A stretch of 64,000 bases of DNA. Origin: Crossaster papposus (lineage: Eukaryota > Echinodermata > Asteroidea > Velatida > Solasteridae). The stretch covers positions 1,178,001-1,242,000 of the forward strand of contig JBAIAA010000120.1 in NCBI GenBank assembly GCA_037893245.1, read 5' to 3'. The notes under the pieces were generated by a model, which saw only the letters and a program-made list of their open reading frames with translations, did no database searches and had not been told where the DNA came from. Position 1 is the stretch's first letter, and the number at the start of each line of letters is the position of its first letter. A program made the position numbers and the translations under genes. Shown piece by piece: positions 3,601 to 45,600 of the stretch.

Positions 3601-6600
3601 TGTTTATGCGTCATCCGTTTTGAATCTGGAGAAAACTGTGCGTGTATATACGTCCTCCGGCGCGAACTGGTTAAGGTGCATTATACAACAATGTTTTTTG
3701 GACGATTTGGAATTTGAATTTCCATTGTACACTTTTGTTTGAATTTCATCTAAAAGACAAAATATATCGTTGTTGGTGTGGTTGTAAATAAACTCACTTT
3801 CTCAAGGGCGAGTTATGATAAATTGATTGCTTACTTACAGCACACTGATCGCACGATAGACCAATGACGTTAGGTTGACACTCGCATTGTCCGGTCTCCC
3901 GATGGCAGAAAGAAGACAATCTTCCATTTTCATCACAACGACACACTGTCAAAATTAAAACAAATGAGAAATAAAGTTAAACAGAACCCAACCTTTAGTT
4001 AGTAACATTATGTACAATAGGCCTACTTGACATATTGTGGTGTTTTTTTGTTGTTGCTAAATTCATCAATCTTTAAAAAAATCACGCATCACTTTTGACA
4101 ATTTGTTTGCTTGTTTAAATATCCCACAATAGCCCCCGCCCCCAAAAAAATTGGGTGGCTTGTGTGTAAAGCGCTCCCCTCTCACCAATGTGGCCCGGGT
4201 TCGATTCCCCGGCCTGGACCATATGTGAGTAGAGTTGTGCGTTAGTTCTCTCCTGTGCCACAAGGGTTTTCCTCCCTCTGAAAAAATCAAACACTTTCGA
4301 TCTCGGGCTGTGCTCCGTAGTCATATTTTTGTGCCAGCGACTCGACTACGTTGTAGCCGCGTCTTTCGCAATTCAGCACCCCAGCTGCGAGTAAGGATGA
4401 TAAGCCTCTCTAATTATTATTACATTGGTTGATTGTCGACTCACCTTGGCAGTTCTTAGCAGTAATCGCATCCCCATAATACCCATCTCTGCAATGCTCG
4501 CAATGAGCTCCCGCGGTATCACCGACGCAGATCAGACACTCTCCAGTCAAAGTGTCACAACTCGCAGGTATTAGCGGGCTGATGTTGTCGTTACAGAGGG
4601 ATGCGCAAGGGCGACAATAACCCCCGACCTCCATAGGGTTGCCATAGAAACCATCAGCACATCTGAGGGAAAAGGATTGTTTAGACGAGCGAGAGGATAA
4701 ATTGACAGGTGTGATTGGTTGTTTATTATGACTTTTCCAGGAAAATTTTGTTTAAGTAAATTTGCCAGAAAACGGTAACAAACTAAAATCGGATCCAAAG
4801 TTTGCTAAGTTTGAACTGTTAATGTTTTGAAAAAGAGAACGTATAGTTCAAGTTTTATATCAAATTTTATTTTCAATTCAATAATTAGATCTTGCCCTTC
4901 ATCGCTGACATGTTTTTACACTGTATACTTATCAGTGTTGTCCTGAGGAATTCTTTCGAAAAAATCACTGACTGGGGTAGGACTCGAACCCACGACCTCC
5001 TGCTTTCTAGTGCAGACGTCTTACCACTTGACCATCGAGCTAGCCGGTGTGGGCTGGCTGGTTCGAATCTGATTAGCATCTGAGGATACATTTGGTTGCA
5101 GAAAGAGCCCTTTCAGCTGGTGAGATGTTAAGATTTTTTGAGGGATAAGCATGCAAGCCAAGGCAGGTGTTTAATCAATTAAGATGAGGCAGAATGAGGG
5201 TGTATGCCTCCAACCTTAACCCCTTACCGCTCACATCTTGGTCCCGTGAAGCCGCCAGGACAAGAATCGCATACGTAGCTAAACTCTGGATCTGATACGC
5301 AGGAGGGACTGAAACTAAATAAAAATATCGAGAAACTAAATTTAGATTAAAGAATAAAGAACAATTTTCAATAAAATCCACATTTAAAATAGAGGAGCAC
5401 AACATTTCATGCAAGTTCAGAAATCAAGGTTTATAGTATGTACGAATACAAGAACCTTCACGTATTACACCTGTCATTATATCATCTTTATAATAGCTGT
5501 GGCTTTTAAAGTAAAGAAAAAAGCATCCACCAGGGCAGATCAAATTCCTTTAAGAAATAGAACATTAAAAGGAGGTTTTCTGAAGACATTCAGAAGATTC
5601 AGTCCAGATGGTCCATGTGATTCTTCTAGCATTAATTGTCTTTCTTGATAGCAAAGGTACTTAAGTTAATTCCAAAAAGAAATTAAGTAAATAAACGAAT
5701 CGAGTACAAGTGAAAGTGCTGTGGCCTAGTGGTCGGAAGCATTGAATTTGTGGTCTAGCTGCAGGTAGTTCTGCAAGTTGGGGGATCAAGTTCGGCTTGG
5801 GCTAGGACATTTCCACACATAATATGGGTAGACGCAATATTAAGGTAATAAATATGTGGCTGGCCAGTTTTAAACGTATGTTTAAAACAGGCTCATGGGC
5901 CTGGATGAGGGCATTAACAATGTCCAGGCCCGCGAGCCGGTAATAATAACAGCCTACTTGTTCTCTGGGTTTTGGAGCGGGCAGGCACATGGCTGGCAGT
6001 CACGTATTGTGCCTTGGACAGGGTAACCATAGAACCCAATGGCACAGAATTCACAGTGGGGGCCTGTAGTGTTGTGAGCGCAGTACTAAAATAAAACAAC
6101 AGAAAAGTATATCAACAATTAAGTAACTATTTTTCAAATTTCGGTTTAGGCTGTGGCTATGATCTCTGCGTCTCCTAAACACTAGTTCCAAACTTAGTTG
6201 CAAATCATCTCCTAAGCTGAATCTGGGTATACAAATCAAGAATTGGAAGACGAAGTTGGAGAAAAACACCACTAGATTTGAGAAACAGGCAAGTACAGAA
6301 CCACAAATTTTGCCAATGGGAAAGTACAGTGCGTCAGTTGAGGTCATAAGTTCACATGGTCTTGTCGATCATGGTGATAAATTTATAATATAAAGGATAT
6401 AGTTAATACAGAGCTCCGATGAGACAGGCCTAACAGCAAAAATCCAATGTTTAGAAACTTGAGTCAAAGAAATTAAACTTAAAAAAAGGTGACTTTTGGA
6501 ATTTCTTTTGTAAAATGCATAAGAAATATGTCTCGTGTACATTTTTGATTTTGACTTTACAAAGTTCAAAGGTCAAACTCAATAAATGCCAGTAACAAAT

Positions 6601-12600: not shown

Positions 12601-15600
12601 GCTCTGGTCTCTACTGCCTGGCCTCCAAGCTTTCTGGACGAATCCCTGGCAGCACTCGTTACAGCTGTCCCCGCAGGTGTTATGCTCACAGACACACTTT
12701 AGCACCTGTTTATTTCAATTATGCTAATTATTAAGGTAAATGTCAATTATGCTATTCATTAAGGTCAATGTCAATTATGCTAATAATTAAAGGTTGATGC
12801 CAAACTAATTCCTCACTGCTGGTGCACTGAGATTATTTGATGATTATCATGAACAAACTTTCAAATTAAAAAGTGCCACCTCTATTGTAAACAAATTGTA
12901 ATTTAAGAAGAGGTAGAGCTTGAGAAACCATTAGAAACAACTGTTTCAACTGGAAAGTAAATGGCTGGCAAATTTTTGTAAAATATAAAATTTTGTTGGA
13001 AATGTCACAAATAATGATGTTAATTCGTTAATTTAACCCTAACCCTGCCATACCCAGCACAGTGCATCTGTGGTGACTGCTTGACCTTGCTGCACTCTGC
13101 ACACAAATCAATGTGACAAAGTATGCAATCTGTTGTGTCTGGCAGGGTTTCTCTAGCCAAAATACCCTGGAGGGTTATAACTTCTGCACTCATCATAGAT
13201 CAATTTTGGTACTTTTCTAGTAATCTTTGCTTGTGTAATAAAAGTACATTGCCAAACATTTTTGAAATAAACAAAAAAATTTCAGGAAAGTTGTATGTAT
13301 ACCGGCTGATTTTGTGCCACCTCTGGGTCCCGTATGCAAGTTCTGGCATGACCAAAGCATATACACTGCCCTCCGATAGAGATATCCTTGATGGAGTAGA
13401 AATACTATCAACCAAAAAAAAAAAAAGAGAAAGAGGTTGGCCATTAGTGGGGCGGCTTAGCTGATCAATTGTGCACTTTCCCTTAAAAGCATGAAACTTG
13501 GCACATGGTTAGAGTAACACAATACAAAGATTTTTAGTCCAGGGGCCACCGGAAATTGCACCCCGTATGGCGGCCATCTTGGATTTCAAAATGGCCGCCA
13601 TTCTGGATCTGTTTTGTTGAATATCTCCTTAACTGGTAGAGATATCGAGACAGTTGAAACGCCTATACCCACATTTTAGGGGTCTAGGAATCCATTGGTG
13701 ACATCAAAGTTTGAAAATTGTGGCCGCCATCTTGAATTCCAAGATGGCCACCATCCACGAGCTATTTTGCTCAATATCTCATGAAGTAGTAAAGATATCA
13801 ATACATTTTTAACACCTATACCCACGTTTTAGGGGTCTTCTCCTCTCCTGCGAGCTGGACTTGGGCCCATCTGCATCGGCAACCGGGCCGGCCGCGTTCT
13901 CGCGCGGACTGTCCGAGGAGGGGTTCAAACGGGTGAGGTTCCTGGCGGAAGGCGTCAGCGCTTTGACGGCTGCCGGGGAGCGCATCGCCCGCCATTTGCG
14001 GCTCCTTTCCCGGTCGGTCGAGGCTGGCACGCCGCCACCTTGTATCAAGGTGGACGTGCGGCCGCCGCATCTGCGCCGATCTCTGAGGTTTCAGGGTTCG
14101 TTCCGGGATCGTTGGAGCGGTCTCCGGAGGGGAGCATCGTTGCTGTTCGCGGGAATCTCGCTGGAGGGGTGTACGCACCGGCTGCCAGTCGCCGGGGACC
14201 GGCTCGCCGGCGCCGGACGCTCGGCGCAGGAAGGGCTTGCTGGGGGTTTCCAGGGTCGGGACCATTCTACCGCTCGGAGGCTCCTGAGCTTCTTCACGGG
14301 ACCCTGTCGGCCCAACGGGGGCGTCGGGAGGGGGCGACAGCCCTGAGCCGATCTCTGACCACTGCGGGGCCGAGCAGTCCTTTTCGGGGCTGCCACGCCT
14401 TCTCGGGGGAGGTGGGTCCGTCATCTTGCCCTTATTATTGTATGGTGGCTGTAATAAATGAACTGGAATGTGGCCCCTCCTGCATTGTCTGTTGTACTAT
14501 CCGGGCCATTGGTCTCTTGGCTGCCGTGGCGGGAAGAGAACTCGAAGGGAAAGCTGATGGATCGCTTGGTCGGTCGAGGTCTGGCCGTTTCTCGGGCGGG
14601 TGCGGATCGAGAGCCGGGCGAGCCGGCTCCAGTCATTTGCGCTCGCTGGCGGAGCGGTGCCGGTCCTTCGTGGCAGGCCTATCCGGGGCGGCACTGTCGC
14701 GGACCGAAGCAGTTGCTTTGGGAAGGGGTTTAGGTTTCGTGCCTGCTCCTTCTGGGCCAGGCCGCGGGGCGCTTGTAGGTGGCGTGAGTGCCTTCAGTCG
14801 AAGGCTGGGAGTTGCATTCTTGGTGCGTGATGGGCGCTCCAGGGGCCATCCTTTCGGGCCGCCATCGGGCTGGCGACCTGAGTCGTCCCCTGGTGCAACG
14901 CTGGAAAAGTGCTTGGAGGCCGCTGGGTTCGAGCTGGCCCGTGTCGGGCTGGGGAGTCGGCGGGCGGACGTGACCGCGCGGGATTTGTCCGCCATGGGTG
15001 GACTCGGGAACGGTCCTGACATCGTGGTCGAGCCGTGTGGCGGGTGCATTGTGGGCCGCTCGGATTATCTACGGGTGGGTTGCCGCCGCCTTGAGTCCCA
15101 TCGCTGTGCCCAGCTGGACCGGTGTGTTGTTCCGCAAACTGTTGCGATGGTTCGCGGCACACTAGTGGAGGTGAGAGGCGGCAGGCGCATCGGCAGCGAT
15201 GCTCTGAGGTGCCTCGGCCCACTTCTGCGGAGCTGTCAGTGTCCGGCCATGTGTTTTCTCCCCAATGTGCACGGGGCACCGCCACCGGGGGAGCCTTTTG
15301 TTGGACGTCCAATTGTGGGTGGTTGTACTGGCCCTACGGTGGGGTTTCAGAGTGCATAGACTGCTTCCTTCTTCTCATGGTGGCCGCGCGGCCCACATGT
15401 GTCCGCGATACGGCGGACGTTTTGCGCGGGCTGGAGGAGGGACATTTTTCGCGGGATGTCCTGGTCGCGAGTATGGATGTTGTTTCTATGTGCACCGGTG
15501 TCCGACGGGTGGGGGCGGTACAATGTGTTTGCGGTGCCCTAGAGGGCGCAGGCCGTTGCCGCCCAGTCGCGGAACCACCTTCAATGTGCATCTGGGGGCT

Positions 15601-18600
15601 TCTGGAACTCATCCTCGGTCGCGGCTGCTTCCGTTTCGGGAGTGGGTTCTTTCTCCGGAGGGTTGGTTGTGCGGTGGGCTCCGCATCAGGCCCTGAAATT
15701 TGTGACGTCGCCCTGCACGGCTTCGAGGGCAAAGTGGTCCAGGGGGCGGGTGGCATCCTTGCATGGTGGCGCTGTGGAGGCGACATGTTGGTCATCTGCA
15801 ACGGAGCTCTGAACGAGTTCCGGGGTCTCGTCGCGGAGGTGGGCGGGATGCGCCCAACTCTAAGGTTTGCATGCGGGGCCTCTGAATCATCAATCGGCTA
15901 CCTTGACTTGACTATATTTGAAGGAGACCGTTTCCATGGGGCAGGAGTCCTGGACGCCGGGGTCTGCACGGGGCCGGCGGAGGCCTTCCAGTATCTCCGT
16001 GGGGCATCATCCCGCCCACCCCGTATTTTCAAGGCGTTCATGTGCGGAGAGGCGCTCCGCTGCGCTGGGGGCGCCGGCAGCGCGGATGGTTTCCGCAGCG
16101 GAGTCGAGGTGTTCTCGGAGAGGCTAACCACGGGAGGCTGCACTTCCGGTGAAGTCGGAGCGGCAGCAGCCGGGGTCTCACGTGCCGACCGATCGAGACT
16201 GGTGCACGGCGCAGGGGATGGAGAGGAAGCAGGACGGGCTCCGCTTGTCTTCGCAGCCACCTGCAGCCCAGCCATGGATCGCGGTGACATGTGTCGAGCG
16301 GTGGGCAGGCACTGGAGCTTGATCGAGGGCAGTCGGGTGCTCTCGGAGCTTTTTCCGAGGCCTCCTTTTGTTGCCTTCGAGGGGGCCCAGAGCATTCGGG
16401 AGAGGTTGGTGGGAGCTGAGCCGGACGAGGCCCTCAACATGTTGCTCTCCTTGCTGGGGGGGGGGGGGGGGGGGGCGGTCTGAAGCCGGCTGGCGGACGT
16501 GTGGCTCGGTCTAAGCTTGCATGATTGGAGTGTGCCCGGTCCCAGCCGCAACCTCTCTGCGAGTCAGCTTCGATTCTTTTTGGGTCACCCATTTGCAGCT
16601 GACGAGTTCTGCAGCGGGGCGCGAAAGCATGCTGTTGCTGTCGGGGGGGGGTTTGTAAACGTGGTCCTCTGCTCGCACCTCTAGTCACATCTGGTTGTCC
16701 AACCGGCTGGAGTCGCTCAGTCTCTTGTGTCCGCCCAATGTGCATTTTGGTTTGGACGTAGCCGGCGAAGACTGGGTCATGCTTGGGGTCCATTTTGGGC
16801 CGGAACGGGTCGGGAGAGGGGGAGTGTCGCTGGGTGGGATGGTGCCATCTCATTTCTAAAATCAAAAGCAAAAGCTCGAACCACTCCCAACAGACTCTGG
16901 CTTTTTCGAACAACCTACTGAACCAGACGAAACCCTCAACATATTGCTCTCCTTACTGGAGGAACAATCTGAAACCGACTAACAAACATATGGCTCAATC
17001 CAAACTTACATGATTGGAATATACCCAATCCCAACCACAACCTCTCTGCGAGTCAGCTTCGATTCTTTTTGAATCACCCATTTGCAACTGACGAGTGCTA
17101 CAGCAAGGCACGAAAGCATGCTATTGCTATCAAGAGGATTTGTAAACATAATCCTCTGCTCGCACCTCTAATCACATCTGATTATCCAACCAACTAAAGT
17201 CACTCAATCTCTTATGTCCACCCAATATACATTTTAATTTGGACATAACCGGCAAAGACTAAGTCATGCTTAAAATCCATTTTAAGCCAAAACAAGTCAA
17301 GAGAAAGGGAGTGTCACTGAATGGGATAGTGCCATCTCATTTCTAAAATTCTAAAATCATGAGATATTGAGCAAAATAGCTCGTGGATGGTGGCCATCTT
17401 GGAATTCAAGATGGCGGCCACAATTTTCAAACTTTGATGTCACCAATGGATTCCTAGACCCCTAAAATGTGGGTATAGGCGTTTCAACTGTCTCGATATC
17501 TCTACCAGTTAAGGAGATATTCAACAAAACAGATCCACAATGGCGGCCATTTTGAAATCCAAGATGGCCGCCATACGGGGTGCAATTTCCGGTGGCCCCT
17601 GGACTAAAAATCCTTGTATTGTGTTACTCTAACTATGTGCCAAGTTTCATGCTTTTAAGGGAAAGTGCACAATCGACCTTTTTTTTTGAGCTAAGCCGCC
17701 CCACTACATGGTTAATCATAAACTACACATCTTACAAACAATAAAGTTGAACTTTTTATTTCTCCAGTCACAGTTATAGTACCCAAAACTGTACTCCTAA
17801 AATTCGGAAAGTTTATCAGCGAGGTCAAACTAACCACTTTCATTCCTAGTTTATAGATCCCCGGGCAGAACTTGTACCTTAAATTTCTAAGCCTCCAGTC
17901 CTTTAAAGTTCACCAAACACCCATGACAATTTACAAGCTGTAATTCATGTCATTGAATACACTTCACTAACAACTACAAAAACAAACAGTGTTGAAATAA
18001 GTTTGTGTTTTGTGTTGTAAGGGCCAGCAGACATCTGGGCTACTGGCGAGTTAGCACAGGGTTGAACGACCCTTGTCGCAGTTGTTCAAAAGTGGTCTTG
18101 GCGCAAATGCACCAATTGCAAACTCACCGGGGTGTTCCTAAGTGCCTTAAATACACCCCATTCATACGCCCAAACACTGGAAAAAGATTTCGTGTGGCAC
18201 CCAAAAAGTGCGCAGGAACCACACAGGGGTGGGATGAAAACATAAACAAACTGTAGAAGCCGCACAAATTTGTACAAATAAAATTGTATAAAACAGTCGG
18301 TTGTAATAAAAACAAAAATCTAAACAGTCTCCGGCAACAAGGTTGCAACCTTAAAAAATATTTTATGTTCTGGCTAAAACTTAATTTGTAATGGGTTTTA
18401 ATTTCTGCCTACAAAGTGTTTTTCGGAACCACAGGGCTGAGATAGTTTAATGGCCGGAGAATCTTGGGTGTTTAACCGACTAAAAGGCCAATATGAGCTA
18501 TTTCGTCCTACCCGTCGGTATACGTTCTCGTCAATGAAGCCGTTTTTCCCATAAGCCATCAGTCCCCCGTGGAGTGTACGGATCTTCTGCAATCGTAGCC

Positions 18601-27600: not shown

Positions 27601-30600
27601 TTTTTCTGTGAGACTATTAGGTTTTTTAAAATTCTAATGGGAGTGCTTTTGCAAGAAGGTATAGCACAGAGAAACCGGTTTATGCAGGCATACTTCAAGA
27701 AATGATCAGTATATTTTTTGTTTTGAAAAAAAATCAATTCTAGAGTTAGCTGCAGTGAATCAGAACTCATTCTATATGGGAAGGGGAGGGTGTTTATGGG
27801 AGTTGTCACAAGTCATAACTTTTTCTCATCGTTTTCGTTATTTATTTTGGAGATGCTGAAGCAGTTCTGCTGCGTGAAGTATCATTGGATTTTAGGTGTG
27901 TGGCTTGGTCTGCAGAGATAAGTCTGTATAATTTATGATGTGCTATATGCCAGCAGTGTGGTTGCGTAACTATCCTGCCCATGAGCGTAAATCTTAATTT
28001 AATTTTTTTTTCTAGTGATATACGCTTCATGGGAGGTCAGTTCAGGCCACATTATTTTCTGCGAGATTGCAGTCTGTAGAAATGGGGGGTGGGGGGGGGG
28101 GTGTTTCGTGTACAAGTTTCAAAAGAACCCCTCCGTGCTTTTCGTTATTTTTTTGAGACGCGGAAAAGGTTCTGCTGACAAGTATCATATGGATTGTATT
28201 TGTGACTGGTCTGCAGAGATATATCTGTAATTGTACGTTAACTAGTGGGTATGCTAGAAAGTGGTTGTTTAACTGGTCTCTCCAGAGCGTAATTCTTAAC
28301 TCTTTTTTTTCCTTTTTGTGTAAGACACGCATCTGGGGGTCAGTTCTAGCCACATTATCTCTGCTAGATGACAGTCTGTGGTTGGAGTTCGTGGACGGGA
28401 AAATTCATCAAAGGTCTGCAGGCCAATTTGGTTAGACATTCCCTAAAAGCAGGAGTTTCAAACCCTGTCTCTAGTTTGGGGGACACGATGACTGGTTTGT
28501 GTATTGCAACAGTGGTCCCTTTGTTTTTAGTTTACACAGTGATTGATTATTACCGGTGATAATATGCCGTCCCCTCTTTTTTCCCCTTTTTTGGAAGGGG
28601 AGCAGGGCATATTTTCTGTGCTATATCATGCACGTCATCAGTCACCATCTTATATAGTTCATTTTCCTTTCCTTGTTTTTATTTGTGTGTCGGTTTATAT
28701 GACACGTGGCAAGGACAAATACCGGATTTTGGGGGGGTTTTTTGGGGGGGGGTGTCTTGACTTATTTATTTTGTTTTAGTCTTGAGATCCATTTCTTTGA
28801 TCATTGTTTTGTTCTTCCAATAGTCCCAATAGAATTTGCAGATTCTCCTCATCAAGATTTTGTTCCTCTTGGTTGGATTGTGGAGATGCTTTAGTCCTAG
28901 ATCGAACAAGTTCATCTTTTATGTTTTTGTGCCGTTTGTATGCCAGGATGGGTTGGGTATCAAATATCCTATTTAGATATTCGTTTTCGCTAATCAAGGG
29001 CCAGTGTTTGAGGATAGCCCGTTTGAGGGCTGGGTGCGCGACATGTGGGTAGTATGGTAGGACGAACACCAGTGGGATATTGTTGTGTTTTTTTTCACGC
29101 TTAGGGTCCGCGGGAGTCTTGCCCCTTTGAGAAAGGAGGGCTAGGTCTTCGTTTGTGTATCCGCGCTTTTGAAGTTTGTCTTTGAAGAATTCAACCCTCT
29201 CCTCAAAGTCTTTTAAATGGGTACATATATGTTTGTATCTGGTCACTTCGCCCTTGATTAATCCGCCAAATACCGACATAGGGTGTGCTGAATCTCGAGC
29301 TAGGTACCAGAAAATGGCACCATGACTCAAATTTCATCTACGGCTATAAGCTTTGTTTTCTTGCATAGAAAACAAAATGTTCATGAATAGGGTTAGTATT
29401 TTACAGTCAAGATGTAGCGTGCAAAGAGAATACATTGAAAACCCTATGTAAAATATAGCAATTTATGACGTCATACTTAATTTGCATAAAAGTACACTTA
29501 TTAGTGCTCCGAAAAAATGGCACCATGACTCAAATTTCATCTACGGCTATAAGCTTTGCATTCCTGCAAAGAAAACAACATGTTCATGAATAGGGTTAGT
29601 ATTTTACAGTCAAGATGTAGCGTGCAAAAAGAATACATTGAAAACCCTATGTAAAATATAGCAATTTATGACGTCATACTTAATTTGCATAAAAGTACAC
29701 TTATTAGTGCTCCGAAAAAATGGCACCATGACTCAAATTGTATCTACGGCTATAAGCTTTGTATTCCTGCAAAGAAAACAACATGTTCATGAATAGGGTT
29801 AGTATTTTACAGTCAAGATGTAGCGTGCAAAGATAATACATTGAAAACCATATGTAAAATATAGCAATTTATGACGTCATACTTAATTTGCATAAAAGTA
29901 CACTTATTAGTGCTCCGAAAAAATGGCACCATGACTCAAATTTCATCTACGGCTATAAGCTTTGTATTCCTGCAAAGAAAACAACATGTTCATGAATAGG
30001 GTTAGTATTTTACAGTCAAGATGTACCGTGCAAAGAGAATACATTGAAAACCCTATGTAAAATATAGCAATTTATGACGTCATACTTAATTTGCATAAAA
30101 GTACACTTATATGTGCTCCGAAAAAATGGCACCAAGACTCAAATTGTATCTATGGCTATAAGCTTTGTATTCCTGCAAAGAAAACAAAATGTTCATGAAT
30201 TTCCCACGGGATGACAATGGCTGCAAGACTATCCAAGCAATGTTATGGAACAGATTAAGAAAGTGTGTTTATATGGAAGAATTCAAGCAAATTCCAGACC
30301 CTGGAATGTTAGGGATGGCAGGCACAGATGTGCGGCATATTTCAAGAATTCTCCACTTGACTGATAGCTTTTTGGCAAGGGAGAAATATTTCTGCTAGTT
30401 TTTGAACATATATGGCAAATTGCGAGTCTTAATGAATAAAAATTGTATTGATCTGGTTTTCAAAGTCAGTAGAATGTAAAACAATGTGACAGAGATGTTG
30501 CTCTAGTCTGGCCACTTCAAATAAATCACCACTAAGCTTACCTTGAACCATGGAGGAATAATGCTTGAACTTGAAGAAAGAAATCTTTAAAAATACTTTA

Positions 30601-42600: not shown

Positions 42601-45600
42601 TTCAATCATTTCATTCACAGCAGTATTTTAAATTAAAAAGAAAACTATCAGATTTCAAACCACCCAAACTTGAAATGTCCAAGGTTTGTAGAGTATCCTA
42701 ATCTTTCTCAAAATCAGATCAAGTGTAAATGTAGAAGTTTTGATAAGAAATAAATAGTTTTGAAACAAAATTCTCAGTGTATGCACATTCAAGGTTTTCC
42801 ACCAGAAAAGTAATTTTTTTCCCTCTCAGTTTGCAAACTAAACTAGTTTCTTTAAGTTAATATCTAAACTGCCCCTGGCAACAACTCTTTGAAATGATGA
42901 CCTTTGTAGATTATGCATTTACACAAACCAACAACTGGAATTCAAGAAACCACTTACAATTTATAATGTATTTACGTAGATAGTGTATACTACTAGCTCC
43001 ATGGTTTAAGATCACAGCATTCAGGAAGTACTTGGAGATTTGAAGTGTTTCTGGGGACATTACCTCTGACATAAACAGATTCAGAATGAAATGGGCTCTT
43101 AAATAACTCCTACATCCTGTGACCTGTCCTGAGTGGTCACTCGAGGGTCATTGTGTTAAATGAATGACCCTGATTGTTAATGATTGATATTTTGCTGGGA
43201 GTCCCATAACTCTTTACAATTGTTTGTTCTCAAATGTTTGAGAAGATAGGCCTGAAATTTCATACCTGGGAAAAGATAATAATAATAATACCAATTTCTA
43301 TTATTATTTTTGAGGGGGGGGGGGGGGTGTTTCTGAACAGCAGTTCAGCAGGCAATTAGTTAAACCATGAAGGAATGAAAACACATAGGCCAATTTTTTT
43401 TCTCAATTTCCAGGCCAATCAATGAGTTTAAAATAAGATAATTTGTGAAATCATGAACAGTATCAGAACACACAGTCGTGAACCATATAACGATTGAGGC
43501 TCGATATTGTGTTTTCCTTTATTCCTATGTTATACCCAATCCCTTTGCTTTGCGCTTGCACCGTCGATCGAGGACCGAATTTTTCTATTCATACCGCCGA
43601 CCGAGGGGCTTTTGTTACCTTTGTTCTCCTTTGTGTCTCGCCCTCGGTCGTTATGTGGTGCCGGAACAGAGATACTGACAATTTGGGAGATCCGCCAAAA
43701 TAGGGCAAAATAGCTCAGTTGGTAGAGCGCCTGTCCGGTATTCCGGAGGTTGCAGGTTCAAGTCCCGCCTTGCCAACTTCTTTGTTCACTTTTAAATGTT
43801 ATTATATTAGTCAGCTTTTCTGCAAATGTAATGTGTTAACTTTGTTGCACATTGTTCACAAACTCAGATCATTCTTAAGATTGGCTGAAGTGGTACATAA
43901 TTTAATAATACAGCCCTGGCCGGAATAAAAATAGTCATCAGAAATCCTGAAATTCCTGGGATAGGATGCAAATCTCAAGTTCTCCAGCGCCACCCACACA
44001 GTAATCACACGAGACCACTCTGCATGACAGTAACCTTAGCTCTATTTTAAACCAACAACTAGCTTCTGTTAACCCTGGACTCAATTTGCCTCCCGATCTG
44101 CTCTCCGCTGGGTTGACTTTGTAACATCATCTTGGGACTTGTGTCAGAACAAGTGGAAGATAAACAAAACCAAATGTTTGAACCAGGGCAGATTGTTGTA
44201 ATGATGCTAGAGAAATTCTAAGATATTGGGGTCCAGAGAGAACCTTGGTGGGCTCCTGTAGGTTAAATGGTCAAAGTGCAGGATTTCTCAAGTCTACAGG
44301 TGGTACTTATTATTTTAAGTTCTTAAACACAAAAAAACTCGATCGACACCAGCTCACATTTTAAAAGTAAAATGTTCTCATAATTCTAAATGTTCCTGCC
44401 TTTAACCCTTTTTCTCAAGTTGGCATGCAATATTTATTTCTAATTTTTTTTTGCTGAGGGTGTCCCTTTTTTTTTTTTATGGTTCTCATATTTGTATGAC
44501 TTTGAAGTTGGCCAGTCAGTCAGGATTTTTTTTTTATTTAAGGAAACAAATATTGCAGTTCCACCTGATTGGATGGCTAAAATAAATGATGAGAAGTGTG
44601 TATTATTATCTTCAGTTGTGAGTTTATCATGAGTTGATTAACGACTGCATTAAAATAATCTGTTTTTGGCAAGATGCAATTGACTTAGGTTCTGCACAAT
44701 GTAGCTCCATTTTGGCTGTAGTACGTGGCAGTCATGGTATACCAATAAGGTTTACTATAGACACCTTTAATGAGAGGCGATATAATTGCATCCTTTCATC
44801 TTCTGGGATTCCACAGATTGTTGTACGTCATAAACAACTTCAATGGCAAGTGCCATCTTAATGTACTGTGTCAGTGAATTGCTGCAACCCAAAAAATGAA
44901 GATCTGGAAACCAAGAATGGTGATCTGGGGTGTCAATGAAGATGATGAAAAATCTACCCCATGAAAAACACCCCAGGCTAAGACTAGAGCTTCAGTTTGA
45001 TTTTTAAGGAACATTATGAAGGAACAGCTGGATAATTGATGAGATGACAGGTGTCATAATGCAAGTCCCAAAAGGCAACAATATATGCAATTTTTTTTTG
45101 AGAAAATAGAATATGTGAAAAAATTGCTTACGTTTTCATAAACATAAAAAACATATTAAGCAACAATTGATTAATGTTTGCATCTATGGCTGGAAGTGAT
45201 GCCAGCATGGACTCCCAATTCTGTGTAAAGTCTGGGTTAAGAATTCATGGTGCCAGGCTGTGAAATGACTGCCTTTTTCCCCCCTTCTTTGATTTTCCTT
45301 GTTCTCCGGTTCAAACAAGGGTTATAGCTCTTACAAGGGTTCCTGCTGGATACTGTAATGAGCAGGTGTATAACACCTGCAGAGAAAACAGAGAGAGCTC
45401 ATTCAATCACAACATGATTGATTCATACAATTCGGAAGTCGGCCCAGTGGGTAACTAAACTTGACACACTTGTTGTACAAGACGTAATACAAATAGCTTG
45501 TAGGAATACACAAAATTACAAGCCATGTAAAGGCTAGCAATTCAGGGGAACATTTTATGTTTGTCACTTCTAATAAATAACAGTAATTAAATGCTTGTCT

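Follow-up and report, generated by a model that had tools for sequence, protein, structure and literature searches.

How does one copy of a retroelement come to carry G at most of the places where its head-to-tail neighbour carries A? The question arises in a 64,000-nucleotide stretch of the genome of the sea star Crossaster papposus (hereafter the window; contig JBAIAA010000120.1, positions 1,178,001 to 1,242,000), where a preliminary description had noticed extreme A-to-G changes in a Penelope-like element (PLE) and proposed that its sense RNA was edited from adenosine to inosine and then reverse transcribed into the genome. Our analysis makes it very probable that one sense RNA was hyperedited by ADAR, reverse transcribed beside an unedited copy and amplified by a DNA transposon, with ADAR itself suggested as the enzyme by the signature of the changes. 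The coordinates of all features are collected in Table 1.

The A-to-G signature

The retroelement part of the locus consists of an edited copy, whose 3' end is termed copy 1, and a 5'-truncated copy of the same element that keeps its adenines (copy 2). Over the 433 columns in which the two align in the window, 87 sites differ, of which 85 are A>G, one is C>T and one is G>T; G>A and T>C are absent. Columns 434-437 of copy 2 were excluded, since the 3 mismatches there (T>C, C>A, T>A) lie past the end of homology. The count made by eye in the preliminary description (about 80 A>G, one C>T, one G>T) was therefore close to the full one, as was its tally of the 5' neighbours of edited sites (A 32, T 21, C 19 and G 8, compared with 35, 21, 20 and 8 in the alignment). 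As a share of the adenines available, editing affected 21/25 after T, 35/54 after A, 20/43 after C and 8/25 after G, and the 17 spared GpA adenines agree with the earlier remark that most of these escape. The duplication it described is also real, but copy 2 starts at 16865 and not at 16917: the 54-bp "spacer" is PLE sequence, its edited counterpart is present in the longer loci L016, L017 and L042, and the window copy is without about 69 bp at that place.

The genome searched comprises 1.02 Gb in 1841 contigs, and in a first-look search 40 places were scored of 1199 candidates. For 33 of these 40 loci the commonest base at each site was taken and this majority was set against copy 2 of the window, leaving out L013, L020, L037a, L037b, L045 and L046, in which copy 1 is interrupted by an insertion or shortened by a deletion, and L039, which shares its flanking sequence with L038. 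All 98 differences over 485 sites were A>G, i.e., the mismatches do not become mixed in type once copies are aligned. The edited share again depended on the 5' base (T.85, A.70, C.48, G.29; p=3.6e-5), and the trend over 5' bases gave p=5e-5 in 20,000 permutations, while the 3' neighbour had no detectable effect (p=0.61). By majority, copy 1 and copy 2 show no difference at any site that was not A, which points to two near-identical RNAs as their source.

Base composition shifts in the same two letters. Region 13839-16415 has 0.133 A and 0.373 G, compared with 0.342 and 0.145 in copy 2. The sum A+G stays almost constant (0.51 and 0.49), and there is little difference in C or T. Among the dinucleotides of the region, TpA shows the strongest depletion, with an observed/expected ratio of 0.41 vs 0.64 in copy 2, and the border of the edits coincides with the junction of the two retroelement copies. 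Two further traces of editing were observed. The CpG observed/expected ratio is raised, to 0.93 in the body (13839-16415) vs 0.54 in copy 2, and CpG sites in the body vary among copies at about double the rate of other sites (0.0163 vs 0.0072). The G run at 16456-16475 in copy 1 is also a product of editing, and its length is strongly variable among loci.

A burst of errors by the reverse transcriptase (RT) or during repair, in which unbalanced nucleotides cause G to be written for A throughout, would likewise be one-way, act at the moment of copying and end at the junction of two copies. However, such a burst sits poorly with 98 of 98 changes being of a single kind. When deoxycytidine triphosphate is in excess during minus-strand synthesis, the next-nucleotide effect should favour A with G on its 5' side, whereas GpA is the most spared context (44/164 edited in the sibling comparison below), the opposite of this expectation; nor is there a significant 3' effect. 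We therefore consider an error burst very unlikely.

Unedited siblings and the identity of the element

When the edited frame served as the query, 96 matches were obtained (92 scored of 2747 candidates). The matches listed fall into an edited family of 64 places at 77-100% identity to this frame, where C718 and C1611 are one locus and others are possibly allelic, and a second group of 28 places at 49-57%, with none between 57 and 77%. Two unedited relatives were fetched, the sibling L048 from a family with a frame of 681 amino acids (aa) and L047 from a more distant 679-aa family. Among the second group are the 681-aa open frames, which lie in tandem arrays on C653, C48, C297 and C1227, each array running one way. 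L048 is 93% identical to copy 2 over 488 columns, and its frame ends in a 12-residue tail that is also readable in copy 2.

Between 13839-16862 and L048, 2997 sites could be aligned, with 839 mismatches of which 690 (82%) are A>G. The other 149 (5.0%), comprising 7 G>A, 38 C>T, 32 T>C and 72 others, represent the ordinary divergence of a sibling; by comparison with the 32 T>C and 38 C>T, a few dozen of the 690 A>G may also be ordinary changes. The edited share was 135/168 after T (0.80), 326/430 after A (0.76), 185/315 after C (0.59) and 44/164 after G (0.27), an effect with p=7.8e-32 whose order is the ADAR rule. Along the 3.1 kb of the edited locus L017 the share is even, at about 0.56 to 0.75 per 200 nt.

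The same change runs through the coding sequence. In the remnant of the RT open reading frame (ORF2), the start ATG is now GTG and the stop TAA is now TGG. The catalytic motif, rightly described earlier as CGGD where YxDD is expected, is encoded by CGC TAT AGA GAC GAC in L048 and by CGC TGT GGA GGC GAC in the window, a difference for which A>G alone suffices.

At A/G sites the outgroup L047 has A 241, G 82, C 100 and T 61 times; where the two unedited elements encode the same residue, the counts are A 126, G 12, C 14 and T 8. Together, L048, L047 and copy 2 fix the polarity of the change as A>G. The reverse, a G-rich ancestral form from which copy 2 and its relatives arose by G>A changes of a cytidine deaminase on the antisense strand, can draw on nothing beyond the symmetry of a pairwise alignment. 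In the two unedited relatives the frames are open (681 and 679 aa) and have A and RYRDD, the outgroup ratio A:G is 241:82, and a G-rich PLE family whose RT motif is intact was not seen in this genome, which leaves reverse polarity a negligible probability. The preliminary description had also asked whether a PLE consensus might itself be G-rich; the two unedited relatives are A-rich, with A at 0.38 and 0.35. The available text of PMC2873906 reports one-way G>A clusters of APOBEC type in genomic retrotransposon copies, which resemble the present case as one-way mismatch clusters in genomic retroelement copies, but the known cases are G>A and here the change is A>G.

Adenine deamination could also have acted on DNA, either through ADAR attacking the DNA half of an RNA:DNA hybrid or through an as yet undescribed adenine deaminase of single-stranded DNA, and published work in which ADAR edits the DNA of DNA/RNA hybrids is cited in the accessible part of PMC12925331. 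First-strand complementary DNA is antisense, so its editing would read as T>C on the sense strand, yet T>C (32) is not above C>T (38) in the comparison with L048. The edits also end at copy 2, and a DNA-level origin appears highly improbable.

The element was further characterized through its siblings. The L048 ORF has an RVT_1 match above the cut-off (6.1e-10), and that of L047 falls just below it (28.5 bits, cut-off 29.6). Strings that we take to be PLE marks, KPxDKG, LPK.HK and RY.DD, are present in the L048 ORF, and L047 has KQFDKG. L048 carries an ORF1, separate from and upstream of the RT ORF, for whose 213 aa no Pfam family was found above the cut-off. GIY-YIG was matched neither in the two ORFs of L048 nor in that of L047, and no hammerhead ribozyme was matched in Rfam in window 13400-17800, L048 or L047. 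The edited frames returned nothing useful from Pfam, NCBIfam or PDB, the window fragment had two weak Pfam matches, both under the cut-off, PDB gave no match for this fragment or L048, and the plasmid collection gave no match. The predicted fold of the edited RT region was unusable, with a predicted local distance difference test (pLDDT) score of 36. A partial tandem of one full and one 5'-truncated copy is described for Pen2_Av in the accessible text of PMC3846280, which also mentions endonuclease-deficient PLEs, and tandem organisation is given as usual in Penelope, for PAc, in that of PMC11167929. As far as these sources go, the present element resembles PLEs as a tandem RT element with a full and a 5'-truncated copy head-to-tail, and differs in that GIY-YIG and the hammerhead ribozyme were not detected and that a separate ORF1 lies upstream.

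The carrier transposon and its copies

What the preliminary description missed is that the element is present in many copies inside a DNA transposon, with one event behind the copies compared. The partial tandem lies between the inverted repeats of this transposon, whose ends are TAGTGGGG...CCCCACTA. The repeats are about 350 bp each, with 320 nt paired at 99% identity. The carrier structure was checked in the 40 loci, where the edited copy and copy 2 occupy the space between the repeats and nothing else was recognised. Exact 3-bp target duplications flank 35 of the 40 copies, and the tandem pair L037 has a single outer duplication, TTG. No transposase was found, and in the window and the fetched loci there were no copies of the terminal inverted repeat (TIR) outside elements, the one exception being the other member of the L037 tandem.

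At all 40 scored first-look places, an unmutated copy 2 is preceded by a complete or partial mutated copy 1. For 80 of the 85 edited sites, at least 35 of the 40 loci have G. Two further copies, L049 and L050 (95% identical to L017), have 489 and 425 edited sites in common with it, with 3 and 9 private to one side. The edit sites common to the 42 copies compared indicate a single editing event for these copies, and the loci differ mainly by G-run length, deletions and ordinary mutations.

The pairing, at 40 of 40 places, of a near-invariant, template-like copy with one mutated at A is also what programmed mutagenic retrohoming might leave, with copy 2 as the template and copy 1 as the variable repeat of a diversity-generating retroelement. 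In that system each variable copy should have different substitutions, whereas the mutated copies compared here carry the same ones (80/85 sites); the changes are also limited to A>G, and the whole 3 kb is altered. The different substitutions expected of members of this class were not found, and we give this origin next to no probability.

The later history of the copies was read from 38 aligned copies, excluding L031, L037a and columns near G runs. Their mean pairwise difference is 1.5%, and L017 and L021 are identical copies at different sites; the spread therefore looks recent. Changes in the body, counted per copy against the majority, number 853, with C>T 252, G>A 251, A>G 9 and the rest other, although A is now just 13% of the body. 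The A>G process is not continuing in the body. Open frames extend up to 928 codons, and to 918 codons in L017, L019, L021 and L022, because A>G removes stop codons. These long frames show no sign of selection: their 435 variants comprise 132 synonymous, 291 non-synonymous and 12 stop changes, where neutrality predicts 133.8, 288.3 and 13.0. For the copies aligned, the passenger evolves neutrally.

Table 1. Features of the edited locus and its surroundings, in window coordinates.
Feature	Position	Strand	Remark
Whole DNA transposon, 4262 bp	13445..17706	+	TIRs and target duplication
3-bp target duplication CAT	13442-13444, 17707-17709		both sides of transposon
Left terminal inverted repeat and inner part	13445..13838	+	13465-13784 pairs with 17357-17676
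Hyperedited retroelement copy, slightly 5'-truncated	13839..16862	+	about 64% of A changed to G along full length
Edited remnant of ORF1	13839..14346	+	213 aa in L048
Edited equivalent of histone-type 3' stem-loop	14371..14417	+	between ORF1 and ORF2 in unedited sibling
Edited remnant of ORF2 (reverse transcriptase)	14526..16493	+	681-aa stop-to-stop frame in L048
RT catalytic motif	15770..15784	+	RYRDD in both unedited relatives, RCGGD in edited copy
Copy 1, edited 3' end of element	16416..16862	+	alignment to copy 2
Copy 2, unedited 5'-truncated copy of same retroelement	16865..17353	+	directly head-to-tail with edited copy
Right terminal inverted repeat	17354..17706	+	pairs with left repeat
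Unedited fragment of second (679-aa) family	28776..29333	-	C-terminal tail similar

Some side features of the siblings and the window were also observed. L048 contains a histone-type stem-loop of the 3' untranslated region (RF00032) at 386-432 and 3619-3665, scoring 31.1 bits (gathering score 34) with an E-value of 2.7e-7 in 301 bases and 6e-6 in 6602. It lies about 24 nt past the ORF1 stop and ahead of the RT ORF, and is followed by the purine-rich AAAAGAGAGAAA, which resembles a histone downstream element. The ORF1 RNA may thus be 3'-processed like a histone mRNA. No histone stem-loop was found in L047 in the 184 nt upstream of its frame. The 679-aa family is very numerous (150 scored of 3357 candidates) and forms arrays with a period of about 6.57 kb on C943 and parts of C700. 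On C546, C691, C723 and C790, copies of this family occur in both orientations within some kilobases, and double-stranded RNA might arise from them. In the window, several head-to-tail repeats of about 180 bp (aatacaaagcttatagcc...) were seen by eye on the minus strand at about 29320-30180, immediately upstream of the truncated fragment of this family. Three tRNA-model matches in the window, at 271-342 (-, 44.6 bits), 4969-5041 (-, 34.5) and 43704-43775 (+, 39.3), are possibly heads of short interspersed nuclear elements.

A probable route from an edited RNA to a transposon passenger

The history we propose would begin when a sense RNA spanning nearly all of a Penelope-like retroelement of the tandem arrays became double-stranded along about 3 kb, probably by pairing with an antisense transcript. 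An ADAR-type enzyme would have turned some two thirds of the adenosines in this RNA into inosine, which the RT of the retroelement would have read as G. The edited molecule would then have been written into the genome head-to-tail with a copy that is unedited and 5'-truncated and stems from another RNA, identical apart from the editing, either by a template jump or by sequential tandem insertion. A transposase from elsewhere may have moved the carrier, so that a dead passenger reached dozens of places. The part of this history put forward in the preliminary description, editing of the sense RNA followed by reverse transcription, fits the one-way A>G, the 5' rule, the polarity, the edit border and the deaminase domains of the genome. 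The A-deaminase domain (A_deamin) has 16 matches over the cut-off in the genome, two of them over the full model, and these appear compatible with ADAR activity but are no proof of it.

Several points weigh against this history. A_deamin takes in relatives of ADAR for which RNA editing is unproven, and the proposed hyperediting is read here from genomic DNA. A single event is documented, from which no rate can be derived. The matches listed contain no inverted copy of the 681-aa family, which leaves the double-stranded RNA without a candidate partner there. Invertebrate ADARs prefer a downstream A according to the available text of PMC5625713, whereas in L017 the 3' neighbour had no significant effect, the edited share being T.61, A.63, C.70 and G.64 (p=0.1), with C slightly highest. 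The preliminary description had expected A>G to exceed 90 percent of mismatches, which is the case against copy 2 (85/87) but not against L048 (82%), where about 5% of ordinary sibling divergence accounts for the lower share. Finally, as GIY-YIG and hammerhead were not found, the name Penelope-like rests on the RT, the tandem arrays and the motifs taken as PLE marks.

ADAR-hypermutated avian retroviruses were reportedly described by Hajjar and Linial in 1995 and by Felder et al. For Rous-associated virus and avian leukosis virus, the accessible part of PMC12925331 gives A-to-G changes at nearly 50% of A. As described there, these viruses show the same ADAR-characteristic A-to-G clusters, with close to half of the adenines altered where the clusters lie, but they are viral and the changes are regional (U3 and an inverted repeat), whereas the present case is a genomic, amplified retrotransposon changed over about 3 kb. 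In the animals surveyed in PMC5625713, in the text available, G is depleted upstream of ADAR hyperediting sites. This hyperediting of repeat RNA shares with our locus the clustered A-to-I changes in mobile-element RNA and the avoidance of upstream G; it differs in being seen in RNA only, while here the changes are in genomic DNA and the downstream-A preference is not seen. By title and abstract we found no report of a genomic A-to-G hyperedited retrotransposon family, in a literature search of partial coverage with subscription literature outside it. An element changed A>G over nearly its whole length, present in an assembled genome and spread there by a different transposon, is an unusual variant of the known sequence of ADAR editing followed by reverse transcription.

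In a wider sense, ADAR editing of retroelement RNA could be a germline mutational route able to found new transposable lineages, with an edited RNA, perhaps escaping PLE-directed silencing RNAs, becoming the cargo of a multiplying DNA transposon. This we consider unlikely, and nothing in the data supports an advantage of editing for spread. With some 650 to 690 edits in one molecule, the locus is an unusually complete RNA-editing fossil, and because an unedited twin adjoins it and unedited tandem siblings persist in the same genome, the rule of the enzyme is readable from DNA alone. Such families can be missed or misread, as they have no Pfam match and contain long artificial open frames. Collectively, our results indicate that a hyperedited RNA is apparently reverse transcribable and heritable, and genome searches aware of A>G changes are a way to gauge how frequent such inheritance is.

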